Assembly: GCF_022808675.1 (NCBI RefSeq)
Contig: NZ_JAKZKV010000005.1
Coordinates: 62,001 to 126,000, forward strand
DNA length: 64,000 nt
Direction: 5' to 3'
Source of the DNA: Parabacteroides sp. FAFU027
GTDB taxonomy: Bacteria > Bacteroidota > Bacteroidia > Bacteroidales > UBA7332
In this document: piece by piece, positions 7,467 through 58,417 of the stretch
Layout: the number at the start of each line of letters is the position of its first letter
How positions within the stretch are numbered: the stretch's first letter is position 1
Made by a program: the position numbers and the translations under genes
The notes under the pieces: generated by a model
What the model was told of the DNA's origin: nothing
Seen by the model: only the letters and a program-made list of their open reading frames with translations
Database searches by the model: none

Positions 7467-7817
7467 GTGTCAGAGTTCTTTTCCTCAAATATCAAAGGTC
7501 TTTTCACCAGGTGTCAATACTCATTTCCTTATATGTCAATGGTACTTTCCTTACATGTTTGAGGTCTTTTCCTCGTATGTTTGAGGTCTTTTCATTACTT
7601 GCTTTCGGTCTTTTCCTTGCATGTTTGAGGTCTTTTCCTTGCATGTCAATCCATTCCGATTTAACGTCAGAGGTCTTTTCACCATATGTCAAACATCATT
7701 TCCACATATGTCAGTGGTCTTTTCACTATATGTCGGTACACATTTCACCTTATGTCGATGGTACTTTCATCGCATGTCGATGGTCCTTTCATCATATGTC
7801 AGAGGTCTTTTCATTTT
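7467..7817. repeat. Tandem array, 16 units of 22 bp
   Basis: Units start at 7467, 7489, 7511, 7533, 7555, 7577, 7599, 7621, 7643, 7665 (21 bp), 7686, 7708, 7730, 7752, 7774 and 7796. The consensus is close to ATGTCAGAGGTCTTTTCAC plus three variable bases. Positions 1-5 (ATGTC) and 13-17 (TTTTC) are best conserved and the middle varies. The period is not a multiple of three and no convincing long frame follows it, so it is not coding. It lies between the minus-strand promoter at 7151 and the terminator at 7864, upstream of the gene at 6173-7096. The remaining parts of the 7097-7946 gap are A/T-rich with no gene. Confidence 0.9.
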
Positions 7818-35669: not shown

Positions 35670-36407
35670 TTAATTATCTGCCTTAGCATCGCCACTTGCA
35701 TCTCCCTTTTTCCCTTCCAATGCATGATACTTCTTGCGAAGCTCATCCATTTTATTGAAAACGGCGGTGAGGGTATCGCTTGGCGTATAATGATGCGCCT
35801 GCTCTATGGCGGTACAGAACTGCATATAAGCAGCTATGACAGCCGGCTTGACATCTGTCGCGGATGTATCATGTGCGGCATAATCAGCGTTGCGATTGTG
35901 ATAAACGTCATTCAGCTCGTTGTTTTTCGTTTCCAGATTTACGAACTGGGTACTAACACCGAGCGTGGTTGCCGCGGCAACAAGTTCCGGATTACTTTTG
36001 TATTTATCCACCATTTCGGAGATAGAGCCGGTCTCGATATTTATCGGCAGGGAAGCTACACCTTTGTAGGGAGTCAGGAAGAGATGGAGCGTGGAGGCGG
36101 CAGACTTTTTCGTCTCATCCGAACTACGGATATAAGTGCGGACTATACCTTTGATTTCACCTAACTCGCCATCGCGGGACTTATCCAATCCTTTGATCAG
36201 GGATGAAAGCGCGCTTTTCTGCGCCTGGTTCATACTAAGACCGAGTGTTTGTTGAGTAGATTCGAGCAAGGAAAGGGCTGCCGCAGCTATCGGCCCTATT
36301 ACTGCTGAAACCGGTTTTGCAAGTTCAATCGTCGATTTGTTCAACGAATAGATTCCTTCAATCGTCAGATGATTTACATGAAGGGGAGAAAATGAAATGT
36401 AATCCAT
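35670..36407 (-). CDS. DUF6261 family protein
   Basis: 245 residues, no signal peptide or membrane helix, predicted almost wholly helical. The pattern fits DUF6261: an LDKSRDGELGEIKGIVRTYI helix, a helix beginning KKSAASTLHLFLTPY, an ET-containing turn, the L..N..F/L...R block NLETKNNELNDVYHNRNADY, and a C-terminal helix. The tail GKKGDASGDAKADN is low complexity. DUF6261 proteins are known only from Bacteroidetes and have no assigned function. A seven-unit 41-bp palindrome array begins only 84 bp upstream of this start codon. Confidence 0.72.
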   Translation of the reverse strand: MDYISFSPLHVNHLTIEGIYSLNKSTIELAKPVSAVIGPIAAAALSLLESTQQTLGLSMNQAQKSALSSLIKGLDKSRDGELGEIKGIVRTYIRSSDETKKSAASTLHLFLTPYKGVASLPINIETGSISEMVDKYKSNPELVAAATTLGVSTQFVNLETKNNELNDVYHNRNADYAAHDTSATDVKPAVIAAYMQFCTAIEQAHHYTPSDTLTAVFNKMDELRKKYHALEGKKGDASGDAKADN

Positions 36408-36490: not shown

Positions 36491-36749
36491 CTGCATTTTG
36501 CAGTAGTCTGACTGAGATGTCATTCTTGCCACTGCATTTTGCAGTCGGTCGAACGAGATGTCATTCAAGGGCCTGCATTTTGCCGTAGGTTAAATGAGAA
36601 CTCAACCAAGCTCGTGCATTTTGCAGGAGACGAAATGAAATCCCAATCAAGGTCGTGCATTTTGCAGGAAACTGAAAAAGAACTCGTTCAAGGTCCTGCG
36701 TTTTGCAGCGGTTTGAATCAGGGGCTTTTCGGGGTTCTGCATTTTGCAG
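36491..36749. repeat. Phased palindrome array A: seven cores at 41-bp period
   Basis: 13-bp cores start at 36491, 36532, 36573, 36614, 36655, 36696 and 36737, exactly 41 bp apart. The consensus is CTGCATTTTGCAG (5-bp arms, TTT centre). Variants are CTGCATTTTGCCG once, GTGCATTTTGCAG twice and CTGCGTTTTGCAG once. The 28-bp spacers are semi-conserved (for example GAACGAGATGTCATTC). It lies in the 561-bp gap upstream of the DUF6261 gene. The rest of that gap is A/T-rich with no gene; TACTTTTG on the minus strand at 36802-36795 could be a -7 element upstream of the array. Confidence 0.95.
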
Positions 36750-36968
36750 CATCAAATTGAATAACAAGAAGCTCTGATTCACAATCGTGTTTTCCAAAAG
36801 TATAAATTTATTTTCACAAAACAACACATACAATACAGACTTATTGCAAATAAGCAGATGATCAACATTAGTTTATACTAAAATCCAGGGATGCAATCTT
36901 TAAAAATCACAAGCAAATAAATATTTCCCGGATTCAACTTTCCAATGATTTTTTGAAAATGACGATAC

Positions 36969-39380
36969 TCAATCCTTCTTCTTTCTCAGATTATTATAAT
37001 CCAGATAATAGAGCACACGTACCGATAGGCTATTTGCCGGAGATTTCCAATATCGGGTAAGATTATTCCAGTAATTGGTGATGACTTTATCCTGATTTTC
37101 GAGGGCTGCACTTTTCCATCCCAGGGAAAGCTCAGATCCCGGAGCAAAAATCCATCGGAAGATCATATCTACTGTGAAAGCGTTGTAGTTCTGATCCTCA
37201 TTCTCCTGATAATCGTTTGCTGAAAGCAGATTGCCATCCCTTTGCAGATAATAAAAGTTCTTGTTGGCATTGCCTGACCAGTAATGGCGCACACGAAGCG
37301 TAAGTCCCGAACGGTTGTTGAGCATATAGGAAGCACTCAAGATATTTTCCAACACCTTGACATTACGTTTAGCGAAAACGATTGTACTATCGTTATCCGT
37401 TTTATCCGTAAAGCCGATGTTGTTGTAGGCATTGTTGAAGCTCACCCCGTAATTGAGTTGCGTGTGCTGGCCGATACGCAATGTGGCAGAACCATCCCCA
37501 AGTATGGAATAAGCATCAGTATGAGGTTGAGCATTCATCCCGATGTGGAAATAAAAACTGAGAGACTTACGGGTATCAGTATTCAGGTTAAGATTGTGCC
37601 AGTAATAGTGCGGAGTAAAGAAAAAACGGCCTTTCACCCGTGGTTCGAAGTAATCCTTCTTATCGGTGCCGATACCTCCATTGGCATAGAAACTGTAGTT
37701 GTTTTTGAAGAGCATATTCAGGTTGTATCCCATCTCGTGATTAAACACGGTCGAAGGGTTAAACACCCGGTAATAATCCCACCAAAGATTTCCATTGACC
37801 TCTCTGAAAATGGAAAACGGCTCCACCTTCTGGTAATAAATCCAGCCTTCGGAGAGGATGATATTGTTTCGTTGCAAATACCCTAAATCGTTGGGATTGT
37901 ATTTATCCGAATAAAGCCATTCATTCAAGCCAAATTGCAGTTTGCCCCGGTTCTTTTCCAGCGAAAACTGCCCGTAATATCCCGTTTCACGTGAAGAATC
38001 ACCACGTGTGCTTATTGCGCCTTTTGCCTTCAATGCATATTTGAGGCTCTTATCCCGAAACTGAAAATCAGTCGCGGTTACATTGGCCATAAATGAATTA
38101 TTAGCCATCATCATATTGGTATTTATCAGGCTGAAATAGGAGTTGTGAGGCAAAGACTTATCCACCACCGCAACATTATAATTGGTCAGCGGCTGAATAT
38201 TAACCCTGCGGTGGTTTCCTGTAATGGTATCGCGAAGCTTTGCATAAGAATCCACTGAAACGGCATTGAGAAAGCCAATCCCCCACCCGTCTGCCGTACG
38301 TCCCGATATTTTCGTGGCATTTGCCAGCTGGGTTTCGGTAGGTCTGTAGTAGATTTCTTCATTATCCCGCAGGGCATCGTCTGCTTTCCCTCCAAATTTA
38401 GGATAAGCTCCTATTCTCCGGGAGTAGAAGATATTTCCCCGTTGGAAAAGCTCTGTTCCTTCGGTAAAAAACTGCCGTTTTTCGCTGTAATAAAGTTCGT
38501 AAGGAGTCAGATTGAGCTTCTTATCATCAGACTGTATTTGCCCGAAATCAGGAATCAGCATCATATCCAGAGTAAAGCTCTCGTTGATGCCGTATTTCAT
38601 GTCCATTCCGGCTTTGTAGAGGAAATCGGCTTTCTCGCCGGCCTTTGTTTCGGCGTAAGTAGCCAGATAAGGACTGAAAGAGAGTCTGACGGGCGGTTTA
38701 ATATCTTTGAGACCGGTCATCTCGCCTTCCTGATGGATAAATCCCGAAACATTGCGGTCAACCATACTCCAGGAATTATTGGAATTATACCGGCGGATAT
38801 TGCGAAACATATTCATGCCCCAGGTATTACCTGTCTTTCCGGAAAAACGCAATGCAGAAAAAGGAATGCGCATCTCCGCAATCCAACCGTCAGAAGTAAG
38901 GCGTGTCTTGCTCTCCCAGACTGCATTCCAACTGGCATCTTCATTATCTCCATCGCTTTTTACAGCTTTGAGGTCAATCTGTACCCCGGCAGTTGTAACA
39001 AAAAAGCCAAATGCAAGCTGCCCCTGATTATATGGGTCAATGTAAATGCCGAAATAGTCAGACATTCCCGTATCATCACGGGTGGTCAGAAAGTTAAAGA
39101 TACTGTCAGGAGCGCTGTCATATAAATGCGCCCCGACGTAAATAGCGGTCTGGTCGTAGAAAAGAAATACTTCGGAAGGCTGGAAAGAGGGTTTTCCGTT
39201 TAAAGGTTGCAATTGCACAAAGTCTTTTGCCGGTTTAGCCTGTGAATAAACCGGTTCATCAAGCACGGCATCTATGGTCAGCGGTTTGGATATAGGTAAG
39301 ACTTCCACGCTCTTCTTCTGTACGGCAAAAACATGACCAAAGCAAACAATCGGGATTAGCAGGAGACTCAAATATCTCAT
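36969..39380 (-). CDS. DUF5916 outer-membrane protein with CBM9-like N-terminal domain
   Basis: 803 residues with a signal peptide (1-19). A CBM9-like domain spans about 25-230 (LTIDAVLDEPVYSQAKPAKDF, FFVTTAGVQIDLKAV, GWIAEMRIPFSALRF). From about 235 to the end it is a beta-barrel with alternating strands, including the DUF5916 motif YYSEKRQFFTEGTELFQ. The two-domain layout and length are normal for the family. It may bind or move glycans or peptides at the outer membrane, but no substrate is known. The barrel gene at 39414 lies just upstream on the same strand with a 33-bp gap, so they are probably co-transcribed. Confidence 0.87.
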   Translation of the reverse strand: MRYLSLLLIPIVCFGHVFAVQKKSVEVLPISKPLTIDAVLDEPVYSQAKPAKDFVQLQPLNGKPSFQPSEVFLFYDQTAIYVGAHLYDSAPDSIFNFLTTRDDTGMSDYFGIYIDPYNQGQLAFGFFVTTAGVQIDLKAVKSDGDNEDASWNAVWESKTRLTSDGWIAEMRIPFSALRFSGKTGNTWGMNMFRNIRRYNSNNSWSMVDRNVSGFIHQEGEMTGLKDIKPPVRLSFSPYLATYAETKAGEKADFLYKAGMDMKYGINESFTLDMMLIPDFGQIQSDDKKLNLTPYELYYSEKRQFFTEGTELFQRGNIFYSRRIGAYPKFGGKADDALRDNEEIYYRPTETQLANATKISGRTADGWGIGFLNAVSVDSYAKLRDTITGNHRRVNIQPLTNYNVAVVDKSLPHNSYFSLINTNMMMANNSFMANVTATDFQFRDKSLKYALKAKGAISTRGDSSRETGYYGQFSLEKNRGKLQFGLNEWLYSDKYNPNDLGYLQRNNIILSEGWIYYQKVEPFSIFREVNGNLWWDYYRVFNPSTVFNHEMGYNLNMLFKNNYSFYANGGIGTDKKDYFEPRVKGRFFFTPHYYWHNLNLNTDTRKSLSFYFHIGMNAQPHTDAYSILGDGSATLRIGQHTQLNYGVSFNNAYNNIGFTDKTDNDSTIVFAKRNVKVLENILSASYMLNNRSGLTLRVRHYWSGNANKNFYYLQRDGNLLSANDYQENEDQNYNAFTVDMIFRWIFAPGSELSLGWKSAALENQDKVITNYWNNLTRYWKSPANSLSVRVLYYLDYNNLRKKKD

Positions 39381-39413
39381 GGGTAAATTCTTTACGATGC
39401 ATTAATCCCTTTA

Positions 39414-40082
39414 TCAGAAATGGAAATAGACCCCGGCTACAACATTGATCGCATTACCTCCGGGTTCTCTGAATTCATTCTTTAGATAACTAAGGTTTGT
39501 ACCCGAATTAAATTTATAGGCAATACCTGTCCATTTCAAGCCTAGATCAGCAGACCAGGATTCAGACCAAAAGTATTCATACATCGCATTTACATGATAC
39601 CCGGCTGCATTTTCGTAATTCCAGGTTGCATCAAAGCCATTCTGTACTCTTTGCCCTCTGATCGTCAACCGGGGCGAAAAGTTATAATCGGCTCCGGCTC
39701 CAAATTTCAGCCTCTTGGTAAAGTCTTTCCCTAACATCAACACATAATTTGCCGTCAATGTTACACTGCCGTAACCCACGCGTGCTTTTACATTGGTTAC
39801 CGGGTTCGTCAGAGTGCTTCCCTCAAAATTAATATCCCCATCCATTTCAAAACTACGGGTCAATTCGTATCCGTATCTGACACCGAATGCGTAATTCTTC
39901 CCCAGGGAAATGTTTGCGTTCTTAAAATCAGGCGTAACGAACAAGGTGTGATTTTCGGTTCCCCTACCCAAATCAGCTGTCAATCCAATTCTGCTCCTGC
40001 CATAAACGGGGTCAGCAGCGCCTTCTCCAAATGTACTGAAGCTTATCAATGCCAGACAGGCAATAATGAATACTCTTTTCAT
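39414..40082 (-). CDS. Porin-family outer-membrane beta-barrel protein
   Basis: 222 residues with a signal peptide (1-19). The mature part has eight or so amphipathic strands (RIGLTADLG, YAFGVRYGYEL, GYGSVTLTANYVLML, KFGAGADYNF) and ends in VVAGVYFHF, the classic C-terminal Phe strand. It is upstream of, and probably co-transcribed with, the DUF5916 gene. No specific function. Confidence 0.8.
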   Translation of the reverse strand: MKRVFIIACLALISFSTFGEGAADPVYGRSRIGLTADLGRGTENHTLFVTPDFKNANISLGKNYAFGVRYGYELTRSFEMDGDINFEGSTLTNPVTNVKARVGYGSVTLTANYVLMLGKDFTKRLKFGAGADYNFSPRLTIRGQRVQNGFDATWNYENAAGYHVNAMYEYFWSESWSADLGLKWTGIAYKFNSGTNLSYLKNEFREPGGNAINVVAGVYFHF

Positions 40083-40206
40083 GGCTAAATATATTTAGGT
40101 GAATGACTCAACTCCGTCTATATTATAACACTCCGACACCGGAAATTGTCTTTAAATCACGGAGTAATAAAAAATGAAGACTATAAAATAAAACACTGGG
40201 AATTTC

Positions 40207-40214
40207 TATCTTTG
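40207..40214 (+). promoter_or_regulatory. -7 element TATCTTTG for the lipoprotein gene at 40252
   Basis: An exact TAnnTTTG match 37 bp upstream of the start codon. No clear -33 element. Confidence 0.5.
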
Positions 40215-40251
40215 CTTTGACAGTAAAAAATCATTTAAATAAGAGCTCCAC

Positions 40252-40764
40252 ATGCGCATTTCAGTATTCGTTATTCTATTATTTACATTCCTATCTTTCA
40301 GCTGCGTCAATAGAAAAGATAATTTTCCGATTTCATTACATTGCAGCTTAATACGCTCCTATGATAGCTTACTTGATGATTCTGTTACTCACAAATGTCA
40401 TGATCTGCATATTGCTGTTATCAACAAATCAAATAAACCAAGAGGTTACTGGACGTGGACTTGTAACTTCTACACAAATCTTATTCTTAATAATACTTAT
40501 ATGTATGCTCTATTCAACGGTTGTGACAAAAATTATCCAGATACATTTATGATCCCACCTCATGATAGTATTTGCTATTCTATTAAATTGGCAGAACAAC
40601 AATATTCCACGCTATTTAAAATCACATCCACAAAAGTTGGATTAATTTATGTTGACCCTAATACATATAGAACTGAAGACGATTATCGACGGTTTATGGG
40701 TGACAAAAGTCAATGGGATAGAATAATATGGAGCAATCCTTTATATTTAACAACACCTGAATAA
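40252..40764 (+). CDS. Small lipoprotein of unknown function
   Basis: 170 residues. The signal peptide MRISVFVILLFTFLSFSC has a lipobox Cys at 18. The mature protein is rich in Tyr, Asn, Cys and Asp (four further Cys) with a possible beta-sandwich (LHIAVINKSNKPRGYWTW, then DTFMIPPHDSICYSIKL). Its base composition is noticeably more A/T-rich than the surrounding genes, suggesting recent acquisition or weak selection. I do not recognise a family. It has its own promoter-like and terminator elements and is convergent with galK. Confidence 0.65.
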   Translation: MRISVFVILLFTFLSFSCVNRKDNFPISLHCSLIRSYDSLLDDSVTHKCHDLHIAVINKSNKPRGYWTWTCNFYTNLILNNTYMYALFNGCDKNYPDTFMIPPHDSICYSIKLAEQQYSTLFKITSTKVGLIYVDPNTYRTEDDYRRFMGDKSQWDRIIWSNPLYLTTPE

Positions 40765-40771
40765 AAACAAA

Positions 40772-40809
40772 AGAACCACAGAAGCCAGTTTCCAGGCCTC
40801 TGTGGTTCT
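40772..40809. terminator. Bidirectional terminator between the lipoprotein gene and galK
   Basis: AGAACCACAGAAGCC and GGCCTCTGTGGTTCT form a 15-bp stem with one G-U. T residues follow on the minus strand and a T-rich stretch on the plus strand. Confidence 0.75.
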
Positions 40810-40820
40810 CTGTTTAATTA

Positions 40821-40851
40821 ATCGGAGTGCGACTTAACGTCGCGCTCCGAT
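40821..40851. repeat. Palindromic hairpin downstream of galK copy 1
   Basis: ATCGGAGTGCGAC and GTCGCGCTCCGAT (one G-U) around TTAAC. It has the same layout as the hairpins at 42765-42795 and 44021-44051, each placed after a gene of the gal block. Confidence 0.7.
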
Positions 40852-40863
40852 TGGGGAAAATTA

Positions 40864-42015
40864 TCAGCAAATCTTGCGCGAACCGTCGCCAATCACCACA
40901 TCATATACTTTCGGTGATACGCCGAATTTATCCATAAAGTCTTTGGTTGCTTTTTCGATAAAGGCATCGTGGAGCTCTTCTTTCACTAAGTTAATGGTGC
41001 AACCACCAAAACCTCCACCCATCACGCGCGATCCTGTCACGCCACATTCTTTGGCTATATCATTGAGGAAATCAAGCTCTTCGCAACTCACTTCGTAGAG
41101 CTTACTCATACCGTAGTGGGTACCAAACATCTTCTTGCCTACTGTCTCGTAATCGCCTTTTTTCAAAGCTTCACAGGCATCAAGCAAGCGTTGCACTTCT
41201 TCGATTACATATTCAGCACGCATATAATCTTCATCATTCAGCTCAAACTTAACTTCTTTGAGCATGTCCAACGTTGCATCACGGAGAAATTCCACCTGCG
41301 GATGATTCTTACGAATGGTTGCAGCCGCACGTTCACACGATTCGCGACGGCGGTTATAGGGAGAGCCTACCAGCTCGTGTTTCACAACGGAATCGAGTAA
41401 TACCAGTTTGTATCCTTTGGGATCAAACGGGACATATTCATATTCAAGCGAGCGACAATCGAGTTTAATCAAATGGCCTGCTTTTCCAAAGATGGAAGCA
41501 AACTGGTCCATGATACCGCACTTCACTCCCACGTAGTTGTGCTCAGTTGCCTGACCAATCTTTGCCTGTTCGAATTTCTCTATCCCAAGACCAAACATAT
41601 CATTCAGCGCAAAAGCATAGGTGCTTTCGAGCGCAGCCGAAGAGGACATCCCCGCTCCCAGCGGCACATCGCCGGTAAATACGGTATCAAATCCTTCGAC
41701 CTTACCACCGCGTTTGCTGATTTCGCGTACCACGCCGAAGATGTATCTCGCCCAGCTTGCAGCAGGCAGGTCTTCTTCATTCAGGCCAAATTCAGCCGAT
41801 TCATTCAGGTCTATGGAGAAAGCGCGGATTTTGGCAAGGCCATTGGGCTTGATTTCGGCTAACATGCCTTTATCCACAGCTCCCGGGAGCACAAAACCAC
41901 CATTGTAATCGGTGTGCTCGCCAATCAGGTTGATACGTCCGGGTGAAAAATATACGGAGCCTTCGGCTTCAAATTTCGCTTTAAAAGTAGAGCGAACAAT
42001 TTCTAGGTTTTTCAT
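40864..42015 (-). CDS. galK: Galactokinase, copy 1
   Basis: 383 residues. GHMP-kinase motifs are intact: GRINLIGEHTDYNGGFVLP (sugar site, about 26-44), GDVPLGAGMSSSAALE (ATP loop, about 115-130) and GGGFGGC (about 340-346). It phosphorylates galactose at C1 in the Leloir pathway. It is the same length as, and highly similar to, the copy at 42816-43967, so it is a tandem duplicate. Codon use is more mixed here (GGC/GGA, GAT, AAT) than in copy 2, suggesting lower expression. It has its own promoter and terminator and a 41-bp palindrome array 269 bp upstream. Confidence 0.95.
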   Translation of the reverse strand: MKNLEIVRSTFKAKFEAEGSVYFSPGRINLIGEHTDYNGGFVLPGAVDKGMLAEIKPNGLAKIRAFSIDLNESAEFGLNEEDLPAASWARYIFGVVREISKRGGKVEGFDTVFTGDVPLGAGMSSSAALESTYAFALNDMFGLGIEKFEQAKIGQATEHNYVGVKCGIMDQFASIFGKAGHLIKLDCRSLEYEYVPFDPKGYKLVLLDSVVKHELVGSPYNRRRESCERAAATIRKNHPQVEFLRDATLDMLKEVKFELNDEDYMRAEYVIEEVQRLLDACEALKKGDYETVGKKMFGTHYGMSKLYEVSCEELDFLNDIAKECGVTGSRVMGGGFGGCTINLVKEELHDAFIEKATKDFMDKFGVSPKVYDVVIGDGSRKIC

Positions 42016-42052
42016 AATTCTAAGGTTTTAAATTATCGTGTAGCTTTAAATG

Positions 42053-42086
42053 CAAAGTTAGAAGGATTACTGAAAAATAAAACAAA
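42053..42086 (-). promoter_or_regulatory. Promoter TTTG-N22-TAACTTTG for galK copy 1
   Basis: On the minus strand TTTG (42086-42083), a 22-bp spacer and TAACTTTG (42060-42053) lie 37 bp upstream of the start codon. This shows copy 1 can be transcribed separately from the rest of the gal operon. Confidence 0.65.
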
Positions 42087-42283
42087 TGAGGAGTAAATAT
42101 GGCGTTCGGGGGATAGAAATTTCACGAGTGGAACGATTGGTTTATTATGAAAGAAGGTATCTCCTATTCTTGCGATAAGATGAGATCCAAATTCCATGAT
42201 CATTCAATTTTTTATGGTTCAACAATGAGTTGTTAGAAAATATCATTTCAGAAATAGCAATCATTTGATAATCATTTAAGCCA

Positions 42284-42542
42284 CTACAAAATGTAGAAGT
42301 TTGAACAGATAGGCAATCAAGTTACTACATTTTGTAGAAGGTTGATTGAGGATTTAATCGGGTTTCTACAAAATGTAGAGGCCTGATTAGGTGTTTATTT
42401 TGGAATCTACATTTTGTAGAAGCTTGAACGAAGACTCTTTCGACCTTCTACAAAATGTAGGAGGTTGAACAGGATATCATTCCGGTTTCTACAAAATGTA
42501 GAGGCTTGAATCGGATACTTTTCTGATTTCTACATTTTGTAG
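42284..42542. repeat. Phased palindrome array B: seven cores at 41-bp period
   Basis: 13-bp cores start at 42284, 42325, 42366, 42407, 42448, 42489 and 42530, exactly 41 bp apart. All seven have perfect 5-bp arms, CTACA and TGTAG. The 3-bp centre is AAA in units 1, 3, 5 and 6 and TTT in units 2, 4 and 7. The 28-bp spacers resemble AGGTTGAACAGGATATCATT. The array lies in the 800-bp gap between the two galK genes. Other parts of the gap hold the galK copy 1 promoter, fragments of the REP family near 42154-42190 and 42610-42635, and the galK copy 2 terminator. Confidence 0.95.
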
Positions 42543-42609
42543 AAACTGTTTTTAGATTTATATACCTCAAATTATCCATTAAAACAGGTTGCCGCTTTTT
42601 CCTCCAAGT

Positions 42610-42815: not shown

Positions 42816-43967
42816 TTAGCAGATTTTACGAGAACCTTCGCCGATAACTACATCGTACACTTTAGGTTCGTGACCGTATTTAGCTGAATATTCTTTTTTC
42901 GCTTTAGCGATAAAACCGTCGTAAAGATCTTCTTTTACTACGTTGATGGTACATCCGCCGAAGCCACCACCCATGATACGGCTACCGGTTACACCAGCTT
43001 CTTCAGCTACAGTAGCTAAGAAGTCAAGCTCTTCGCAGCTCACTTCGTAAAGTTTGCTCATACCCCAGTGAGTTCCGTACATCATTTTACCTACTGTTTC
43101 GAAATCACCTTTGGTCATCGCGTCGCAAGCCGTTCTCAGGCGCTCAGCTTCACCTACCGCGTATTCTGCACGCATGAAGTCCTCAGCGCTTACCAACTCT
43201 TTCACAGCGTTCAGTTGGTCGAAGTTAGCCTGGCACATGTGCTCTACTTCAGGATATTTTTTGTTTACCTCTTTAGCTACGCGCTCGCAAGAAAGACGAC
43301 GCTCGTTGTAAGGAGAACCTACCAACGCGTGTTTTACTACAGAGTCAAGCAATACTACTTTGTAACCTTTAGGCTCGAATGGAACGTACTCAAACTCCAT
43401 GTTGCTGCAATCCAGTTTAATCAAATGGCCTTCTTTTCCGAAGATAGAAGCAAACTGGTCCATGATACCGCAGTTTACACCTACATAGTTGTGCTCGGTC
43501 ATCTGACCTACTTTCACCAACTGTTTTTTGTCGATATTCATTTTGAAAATATCGTTCAAAGCATACGCATAAGCGCTTTCCAAAGCAGCTGATGAAGACA
43601 TACCAGCGCCGAGAGGCACATCACCGGTAAATACTGTATCGAAACCTTCAGCTTTGCCGTCACGTTTTGCCAACTCACGAACAACGCCGAAGATATATCT
43701 TGCCCATCCTTCTGCCGGACGGTCTTCTTCGTTCATTCCGAATTCTGAAGATTCTTTCAGGTCAATAGAGTATGCACGGATTTTATCTGTTCCGTTAGGT
43801 TTCAATTCGATCAACATACCTTTGTCCACTGCACCCGGAAGTACAAAACCACCGTTATAGTCAGTGTGCTCACCAATCAGGTTGATACGACCCGGTGAAA
43901 AATATACTGAACCGTCAGTACCGAATTTTTCTTTGAATGTAGAGCGAACGATTTCTAGGTTTTTCAT
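42816..43967 (-). CDS. galK: Galactokinase, copy 2
   Basis: 383 residues with the same intact GHMP motifs as copy 1 (NLIGEHTDYNGGFVLP, PLGAGMSSSAALES, GGGFGGC). Codon use favours GGT, AAC, TTC, GAC and CGT, the pattern of highly expressed genes, unlike copy 1. It is the last gene of a galM-MFS-galK operon, 99 bp after the permease gene, with a hairpin in that gap that could stabilise the mRNA or trim transcription. Both copies begin with nearly identical codons (MKNLEIVRSTFK), consistent with a duplication followed by divergence. Confidence 0.95.
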   Translation of the reverse strand: MKNLEIVRSTFKEKFGTDGSVYFSPGRINLIGEHTDYNGGFVLPGAVDKGMLIELKPNGTDKIRAYSIDLKESSEFGMNEEDRPAEGWARYIFGVVRELAKRDGKAEGFDTVFTGDVPLGAGMSSSAALESAYAYALNDIFKMNIDKKQLVKVGQMTEHNYVGVNCGIMDQFASIFGKEGHLIKLDCSNMEFEYVPFEPKGYKVVLLDSVVKHALVGSPYNERRLSCERVAKEVNKKYPEVEHMCQANFDQLNAVKELVSAEDFMRAEYAVGEAERLRTACDAMTKGDFETVGKMMYGTHWGMSKLYEVSCEELDFLATVAEEAGVTGSRIMGGGFGGCTINVVKEDLYDGFIAKAKKEYSAKYGHEPKVYDVVIGEGSRKIC

Positions 43968-57939: not shown

Positions 57940-58351
57940 GTGATTTTTTACGGCCGACAGTAATCAAAAGTCATTATGAAGTAAAAATTACCGTCTGAAA
58001 GAGCGATATTGATAATAATACGTAGTCAAATCACTAAGGATTATAACAACCCGAATATAGACACTTTTAATATCAGGTTGATATGCATCCTATACATGTT
58101 ATTATAGCACTTGCCCCAAAATGGGATGCTGAGATTCCGGAGGTAAGATTCAGATAGGTTTGTATATAGGTTTGCTTTAAGTTGTATTTAACCTGCATTA
58201 TCCATAAACAATCGTTTTCGGTCGATTGCCATAAATTCTCTGACTCCGGTCGAGCCAGAGAATAGCATAAAGACCTTCTTCTTAAATTCTGCAAGACAGC
58301 CCGGTTGTTCCCCATACCTATCTCCTGCCTGAGTGGTAGTACATGAAAACA

Positions 58352-58417
58352 TATAACAGGCATAAAGCAGGGATATAACAGAGATAAGACAGGAATATAA
58401 CAGATATTATTGGTGTA
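58352..58417. repeat. Short 22-bp tandem repeat, three units, with adjoining inverted sequence
   Basis: Units start at 58352, 58374 and 58396; each opens TATAACAG and the first two end CAGG(G/A)A. The 19 bases AGAGATAAGACAGGAATAT can pair with ATATCCTTGTTTTATCTCT at about 58418-58436, giving a long imperfect hairpin. Confidence 0.55.

Follow-up and report, generated by a model that had tools for sequence, protein, structure and literature searches.

Two short arrays of evenly spaced palindromes, A and B, lie in the window analysed here, a 64,000-nucleotide stretch of the genome of Parabacteroides sp. FAFU027 (contig NZ_JAKZKV010000005.1, positions 62,001 to 126,000), and raise the question of what so regular a DNA architecture serves and what, if anything, reads it. 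A preliminary description had assigned both arrays to one family whose palindrome arms changed together, and had read this as concerted evolution with a binding partner of altered specificity or as selection for a hairpin. We report that array A adjoins a gene of the DUF6261 family (Pfam: PF19775), and that genes of this family in Bacteroidota are associated with repeat arrays that lie on the upstream side, keep a characteristic period, are dyad-symmetric in most cases and mostly private in sequence, recur as trans copies at sites lacking the gene and, in one instance, have been exchanged as a block.

Two related arrays and an associated gene family

Array A (36491..36749) comprises seven cores of the type CTGCAWWWTGCAG and array B (42284..42542) seven cores CTACAWWWTGTAG; neither is assigned a strand, each core is 13 bp long, and both arrays hold an exact 41-bp period. 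The arm pairs CTACA/TGTAG of array B are perfect in all seven units, and the CTGCA-type arms of array A pair perfectly in three of seven, with one arm mismatch in the other four. In the genome, the core pattern CTRCAWWWTGYAG has 42 occurrences on each strand, whereas a reversed-pattern control has 4. The arrays are real and their spacers are related above chance: over the 36 A-by-B pairs, mean identity is 13.2 of 28 positions, compared with 7.2 (standard deviation 0.63) when A spacers are shuffled, and none of 5000 shuffles reaches 13.2. The pair singled out earlier, the second spacer of A with the fifth of B, does share 17 of 28 positions. That the spacers align in register is borne out, since sliding them by one position lowers mean identity to 9.4 and 8.6; the accompanying claim of a common orientation is not, as array A matches reverse-complemented B almost as well (13.0 of 28), orientation being uninformative because the unit is dyad-symmetric. 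Homogenisation within arrays, also proposed, is apparent in the arms and only slight in the spacers (15.0 of 28 within A and 14.9 within B, against 13.2 between them). A protein-coding array was set aside, 41 not being a multiple of three, as was an array of clustered regularly interspaced short palindromic repeats (CRISPR), the spacers within A and B being mutually alike (shuffled about 7.2) and not unrelated. An Rfam scan of the window returned nothing at gathering scores.

The presumed cognate of array A is a DUF6261 gene on the minus strand (35670..36407, 245 amino acids; PF19775.4, E = 1.3e-25), whose start codon lies 83 bp from the array. Its score of 90.6 bits compares with a Pfam gathering score of 27, and it is the only DUF6261 gene found in the window. 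Matches to PF19775 at E ≤ 0.01 were obtained for all 50 family members scanned. The family is present in 3 of 31 genomes of relatives, 20 of 198 at the level of the order and 12 of 395 at that of the phylum, these sets overlapping and each count including the window's own genome. Copy number reaches at least 18 scored copies per genome; because the order-level search scored at most 18 candidates per genome, such numbers are lower bounds.

Among about 153 listed DUF6261 matches, 100 from 30 Bacteroidota genomes were examined, 99 of them evaluable upstream and 99 downstream. Tandem repetition was sought at lags of 30-129 in the 800 bp upstream, with an array called where self-match reached at least 0.5 over 164 positions; shuffled upstream sequences mostly scored below 0.45. 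An array precedes the gene in 82 of the 99 loci, with best lags of 40-43 (63 arrays), 82-85 (14), 123 (4) and 62 (1), so that 81 of 82 fold to 40-43 bp. Downstream, a repeat was detected in one of 99 loci (lag 49). An array is retained in 71 of the 83 clusters into which the proteins fall at 70% identity, and 25 of the 30 genomes contain at least one. Background windows, taken from 46 loci retrieved with a galactokinase query, gave repeats in 8 of 1719 cases, at four places. One of these, L012, is the orthologue of array B; another, L016, precedes an open reading frame (ORF) that is cut by the contig end and whose start matches our own DUF6261 profile (E = 6.2e-7 in an unfiltered search of one sequence). 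Within about 1.5 kb of the 100 loci, three genomes at most shared any one neighbouring ORF family (blastp, E 1e-6). Terminator-like hairpins follow the DUF6261 stop codon in 28 of 82 loci (shuffled 0.75) and lie between array and start codon in three of 82 (shuffled 0.2). Because these hairpins follow the stop and rarely precede the start, the gene gives the impression of one unit that has an end of its own.

Within the source genome (4.91 Mb) we searched a profile built from 50 units, scoring 150 of 1966 first-look candidates. The family indeed extends beyond A and B: units on both strands give at least 105 matches (E ≤ 1), and these fall in or adjoin seven arrays among the candidates scored, apart from three weak exceptions at C1:261148. 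The remaining five arrays are C1:48143 (a paralogue of B), 57231, 65994 and 69123 on contig C2, and 295668 on C3. Two arrays are mixed, one with five CTACA-type followed by seven CTGCA-type cores, the other with three followed by seven, and some cores are imperfect. The gene adjoining the C1:48143 array is likewise DUF6261 by Pfam. This genome yields 11 DUF6261 matches, of which two pairs fall in a stretch found on two contigs, leaving nine genes; all except L062 have an upstream repeat array (8/9), and their palindromes differ, as in GGAAACTSAGTTTCC, CTTCGCACTTGCGAAG and CCGACCCGTTGGTCGG. The stretch in question (C1:659397-772884 and C7:4601-117979 of this genome, G000), in which two DUF6261 loci are found on both contigs at corresponding distances, may place about 113 kb in the assembly twice, perhaps through strain mixture or real duplication.

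Unit geometry and mostly private sequence

When fitted to units of 40-43 bp, the 82 arrays are best described by 41 bp in 43 cases, 42 bp in 36, 43 bp in two and 40 bp in one; four turns of B-DNA, at 10.4 bp per turn, span about 41.6 bp. Dyad symmetry of the whole unit exceeds z = 2 in 62 of 82 arrays, the strongest local palindrome lies above the 95% null in 50, and a second one does so in five. What the arrays keep in common is where they lie, a period of 41 or 42 bp and, in those 62, dyad symmetry, their sequence being mostly locus-specific, with exceptions.

Hairpins formed in RNA of the gene's strand should tolerate G:T pairs above A:C pairs. No such excess was found in arms identified regardless of wobble (G:T 44, A:C 54; 69 arrays) or in conserved stacked pairs (107 and 133; such pairs occur in 67 of 82 arrays), and for the latter a 2:1 excess is rejected, with the reservation that counts within one array are not independent. 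The missing sense-strand excess speaks against selection for an RNA hairpin and leaves the hairpin alternative of the preliminary description unsupported at the RNA level. Because RNA-type wobble is not in excess and the period lies near four turns of B-DNA, these sequence comparisons support the view that the sites would act as duplex DNA and not as RNA hairpins.

Similarity between arrays of unrelated proteins provides a baseline of 0.55 (standard deviation 0.05, maximum 0.71, 185 pairs), near which most protein pairs below 65% identity remain, while six pairs at 93% identity or more have arrays similar at 0.85-0.99. The L160 and L161 proteins are 92% identical, with arrays at 0.70 only. Within genomes, array similarity averages 0.57 (260 pairs). 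The earlier suggestion that each array might carry a private arm sequence with a linked gene is thus largely upheld, a DUF6261 gene accompanying an arm sequence that is mostly its own.

Copies in trans and a block exchange

Array B, which has no DUF6261 gene in cis, is a copy of the region upstream of another DUF6261 gene, the paralogue L061 (C1:47397), truncated after four or five codons. A minus-strand block (42184..42591) containing distal flank, array and leader is 91% identical to the L061 upstream region and runs into a gene-start remnant (ATGGAATTTGGA..., 42180..42197, minus strand), homology stopping near 42184. Between array B and the L061 array, arms differ at 0 of 70 positions and spacers at 20 of 168 (P = 0.001), a contrast to be read with the knowledge that trans copies were detected through intact cores, which favours conserved cores. 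Downstream of the block, in the same orientation, lies an ORF (40864..42015, minus strand) that we take, with that at 42816-43967, to be one of two galactokinase-like paralogues; the two stand in tandem with array B between them.

Five CTRCA arrays without a DUF6261 gene, among the candidates scored, are present in the source genome (three on C2, one on C3, and array B), with no DUF6261 gene in the 10-19 kb surrounding the C2 and C3 arrays. The palindrome of locus L058 (GAAACTSAGTTTC) recurs in two further arrays, at C1:585655 and C12:16762, with no DUF6261 nearby, and the L058-type copies have in common an irregular last spacing of 36. In genome G196, the L124 palindrome recurs in one 42-bp trans array (L165, 2427-2640) between same-direction genes, presumably of biotin type. 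An exact-pattern search found no second array for the L060 palindrome, and 12 of 14 matches to the L064 pattern fall at its own gene's array and the duplicate of this, the other two being single sites elsewhere. A further palindromic repeat of about 41 bp, with cores CTGCAAATTGCAG and AAGTTCTGAG-like spacers and without a known gene, was noticed at L006 (4026-4240).

How an arm type may change is illustrated by genome G002, from a close relative, in which the locus orthologous to L061 (96% protein identity, shared neighbours) has CTGCA arms, not CTACA. From about -300 to about +50 this locus is closer to the array A locus of the window; further upstream its identity to the L061 locus is 92-100%, and the first array unit, at -342 to -301, combines a CTGCA core with a spacer closer to L061. 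Nearly the whole array and the first 16 or so codons of the gene are A-like and were exchanged as a block. The encoded protein is a mosaic, with nine positions of A type (2, 3, 4, 13, 153, 171, 207, 209 and 239) and 16 of L061 type, and residues 2, 3, 4 and 13 track the arm type. At this locus, block replacement, and not a set of 14 separate compensatory changes, largely accounts for the arm switch. The idea of a binding partner fits the joint exchange of array and N-terminal codons, with DUF6261 as a candidate partner by association.

Just beyond array A lies a promoter-like box, TTG-N19-TAnnTTTG (36795..36824, minus strand); its elements and spacing recur beyond the paralogous array at L061 (L005). 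Elsewhere in the window, a 22-bp unit, roughly two turns of the helix long, is tandemly repeated at 7467-7813 between two minus-strand ORFs, and a short tandem repeat of 11/22 bp lies at 58351-58404.

A possible protein-DNA module and its alternatives

We propose, tentatively and at somewhat less than even confidence, that a DUF6261 gene and its upstream array form a stand-alone chromosomal nucleoprotein module, one gene with one private array, that regulates itself and also acts in trans. A homodimeric protein would bind the dyads along a single helical face and form a cooperative nucleoprotein complex. This protein may be DUF6261 itself, as the association of gene and array suggests, and its N-terminus may do at least part of the reading of the palindrome. 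Such a complex would control its own DUF6261 gene, array copies elsewhere, such as array B beside the galactokinase-like gene, could extend that control in trans, and paralogues in one cell would mostly keep distinct palindromes, each protein thereby binding the array that belongs to it.

Several observations weigh against this proposal. Seventeen of the 99 loci have no array at threshold. The best lag is 42, 84 or 126 in eight of them, though several of these fail to exceed their shuffled versions, and L153, also among the eight, matched Pfam below the cutoff. Among the 82 called arrays, L098 (with best lag 62), L104 and L150 are weak and uncertain, because shuffled sequences in a few AT-rich loci reach 0.47-0.53, and 20 of 82 lack a clear whole-unit dyad. 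The full promoter motif occurs within 200 bp upstream of arrays five times in sense and twice in antisense (shuffled 0.8), a weak enrichment, and this general scan could not place promoters relative to arrays. Pfam recognised no DNA-binding domain in the window protein or 50 members, the median net charge of 82 proteins is -2, and a single-sequence AlphaFold model of the window protein gave an unusable fold (predicted local distance difference test, pLDDT, 37). Privacy has its exceptions: the G504 paralogues L154 and L158 (75% protein identity) share an array at 0.95, with 81% DNA identity over array and gene, perhaps after a recent duplication, and the L146 array is near both (0.75-0.76); the pairs L121/L133 (47%, arrays 0.77) and L089/L114 (54%, 0.72) also depart from it, as do a few pairs without close proteins (0.72-0.77). 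The block replacement in G002 may be an ordinary conversion tract, which would also move array type and N-terminus together, and five further A-type residues are spread along that protein. Finally, the contrast of arms and spacers between array B and its orthologue at L012 (0/70, 6/168) is not significant (P = 0.18).

A PDB profile search gave no credible match (best E 0.021). Weak PADLOC matches, most commonly to ZorA, which 4 of 50 members matched at a best E of 5.8e-5 and the window protein at E 0.0017, and the single-member matches in NCBIfam and PHROGs (best 1.8e-4 and 1.2e-5) were dismissed as helical-protein noise.

In anatomy the module appears closest to the F-plasmid centromere sopC, whose twelve 43-bp tandem repeats carry 16-bp inverted repeats bound by a dimer of SopB (PMC6238139, PMC9178275). 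DUF6261 arrays resemble it, as judged from sequence, in their tandem units of 41-42 bp (40-43 bp in 82 of 82 as fitted) and in their dyads. The array might accordingly be a chromosome-organising or partition-like (parS-like) site, with DUF6261 as its spreading protein and self-regulation secondary, a reading favoured also by the single contig of G196, along which copies are scattered over no fewer than 18 scored places between 3.9 kb and 3.82 Mb. We regard it as unlikely: the arrays, unlike sopC, are chromosomal and upstream of a single gene, the many scored paralogues per genome are unlike a partition system, no recurrent neighbour, ParA-like or other, was found within about 1.5 kb of the 100 loci, and no DNA-binding family is recognised in DUF6261. 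The same tandem layout could instead place the action in RNA, if the array were transcribed and its repeat RNA bound and restrained DUF6261 in the manner of type III toxin-antitoxin systems, of which ToxIN, CptIN and TenpIN are examples. Tandem repeats of about 40 nt lie directly upstream of one gene in the 82 loci and are mostly particular to each locus, and a promoter-like box stands beyond array A and the L061 array; ToxI repeats, too, differ between clusters (PMC8860590). The arms, however, show no RNA-type pair bias, terminators rarely separate array and gene, and the ToxN/AbiQ-type family is absent among the nine Pfam and 11 PADLOC families listed for 50 members, one of which has a weak HEPN_AbiU2 match (E = 0.0045). 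A 41-42 period maintained over unrelated sequences also fits DNA geometry better, and we judge the RNA reading quite unlikely.

The recurrence of one private palindrome in arrays with no DUF6261 gene beside them (CTRCA, GAAACTSAGTTTC and the G196 biotin-type site) would also suit mobility of the palindromes, with the DUF6261 product spreading them as REP-associated tyrosine transposases (RAYTs) are thought to spread repetitive extragenic palindromes (REPs). REPs and bacterial interspersed mosaic elements (BIMEs) likewise combine a palindrome beside one gene with copies elsewhere (PMC3733652), and the irregular last spacing common to the L058-type copies is in keeping with such spread. The DUF6261 arrays nevertheless differ in their regular 41-42 bp spacing, one-sided placement and few copies per palindrome (five trans arrays for CTRCA, two for GAAACTSAGTTTC, no second array for L060, the palindromes searched being part of the genome's set). 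Among 97 DUF6261 proteins no histidine column exceeds 30%, and hence there is no HUH motif, although several tyrosine columns reach 30-61%; nor did DUF6261 find a match among phages with one query, among plasmids with one query each of protein and DNA, or among viral contigs with four, searches that cannot be exhaustive for so diverse a family. Spread by the DUF6261 product thus seems improbable. The likeness of tandem copies within an array, and the occurrence of block replacement, would also suit satellite DNA that has no function and is maintained through replication slippage and gene conversion; placement upstream of a single gene family, where the period hardly varies and dyad symmetry persists despite sequence turnover, makes this very improbable.

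In the literature searched, outside which most subscription journals lie, we found no description of DUF6261 function, its name appearing only in a mutation table of one paper and the accession PF19775 nowhere, and no title bearing on such arrays. The pairing of DUF6261 and array looks like an undescribed system of protein and address label. Carried further, into more doubtful territory, DUF6261 may be a large, fast-diversifying family of DNA readers, each with a private address of about seven dyads four helical turns apart, in which geometry is fixed and letters are free, array and N-terminus can be exchanged as one cassette, and a code of orthogonal protein-DNA pairs marks or controls chromosomal sites in cis and in trans. 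A family of unknown function is in any case tied to a very regular DNA architecture, which makes that function directly testable. If DUF6261 proteins do read their own arrays, they would supply many protein-DNA pairs that share one geometry and differ in their letters, a resource for studying the evolution of DNA specificity and a set of tools with which to label or control sites on Bacteroidota chromosomes.

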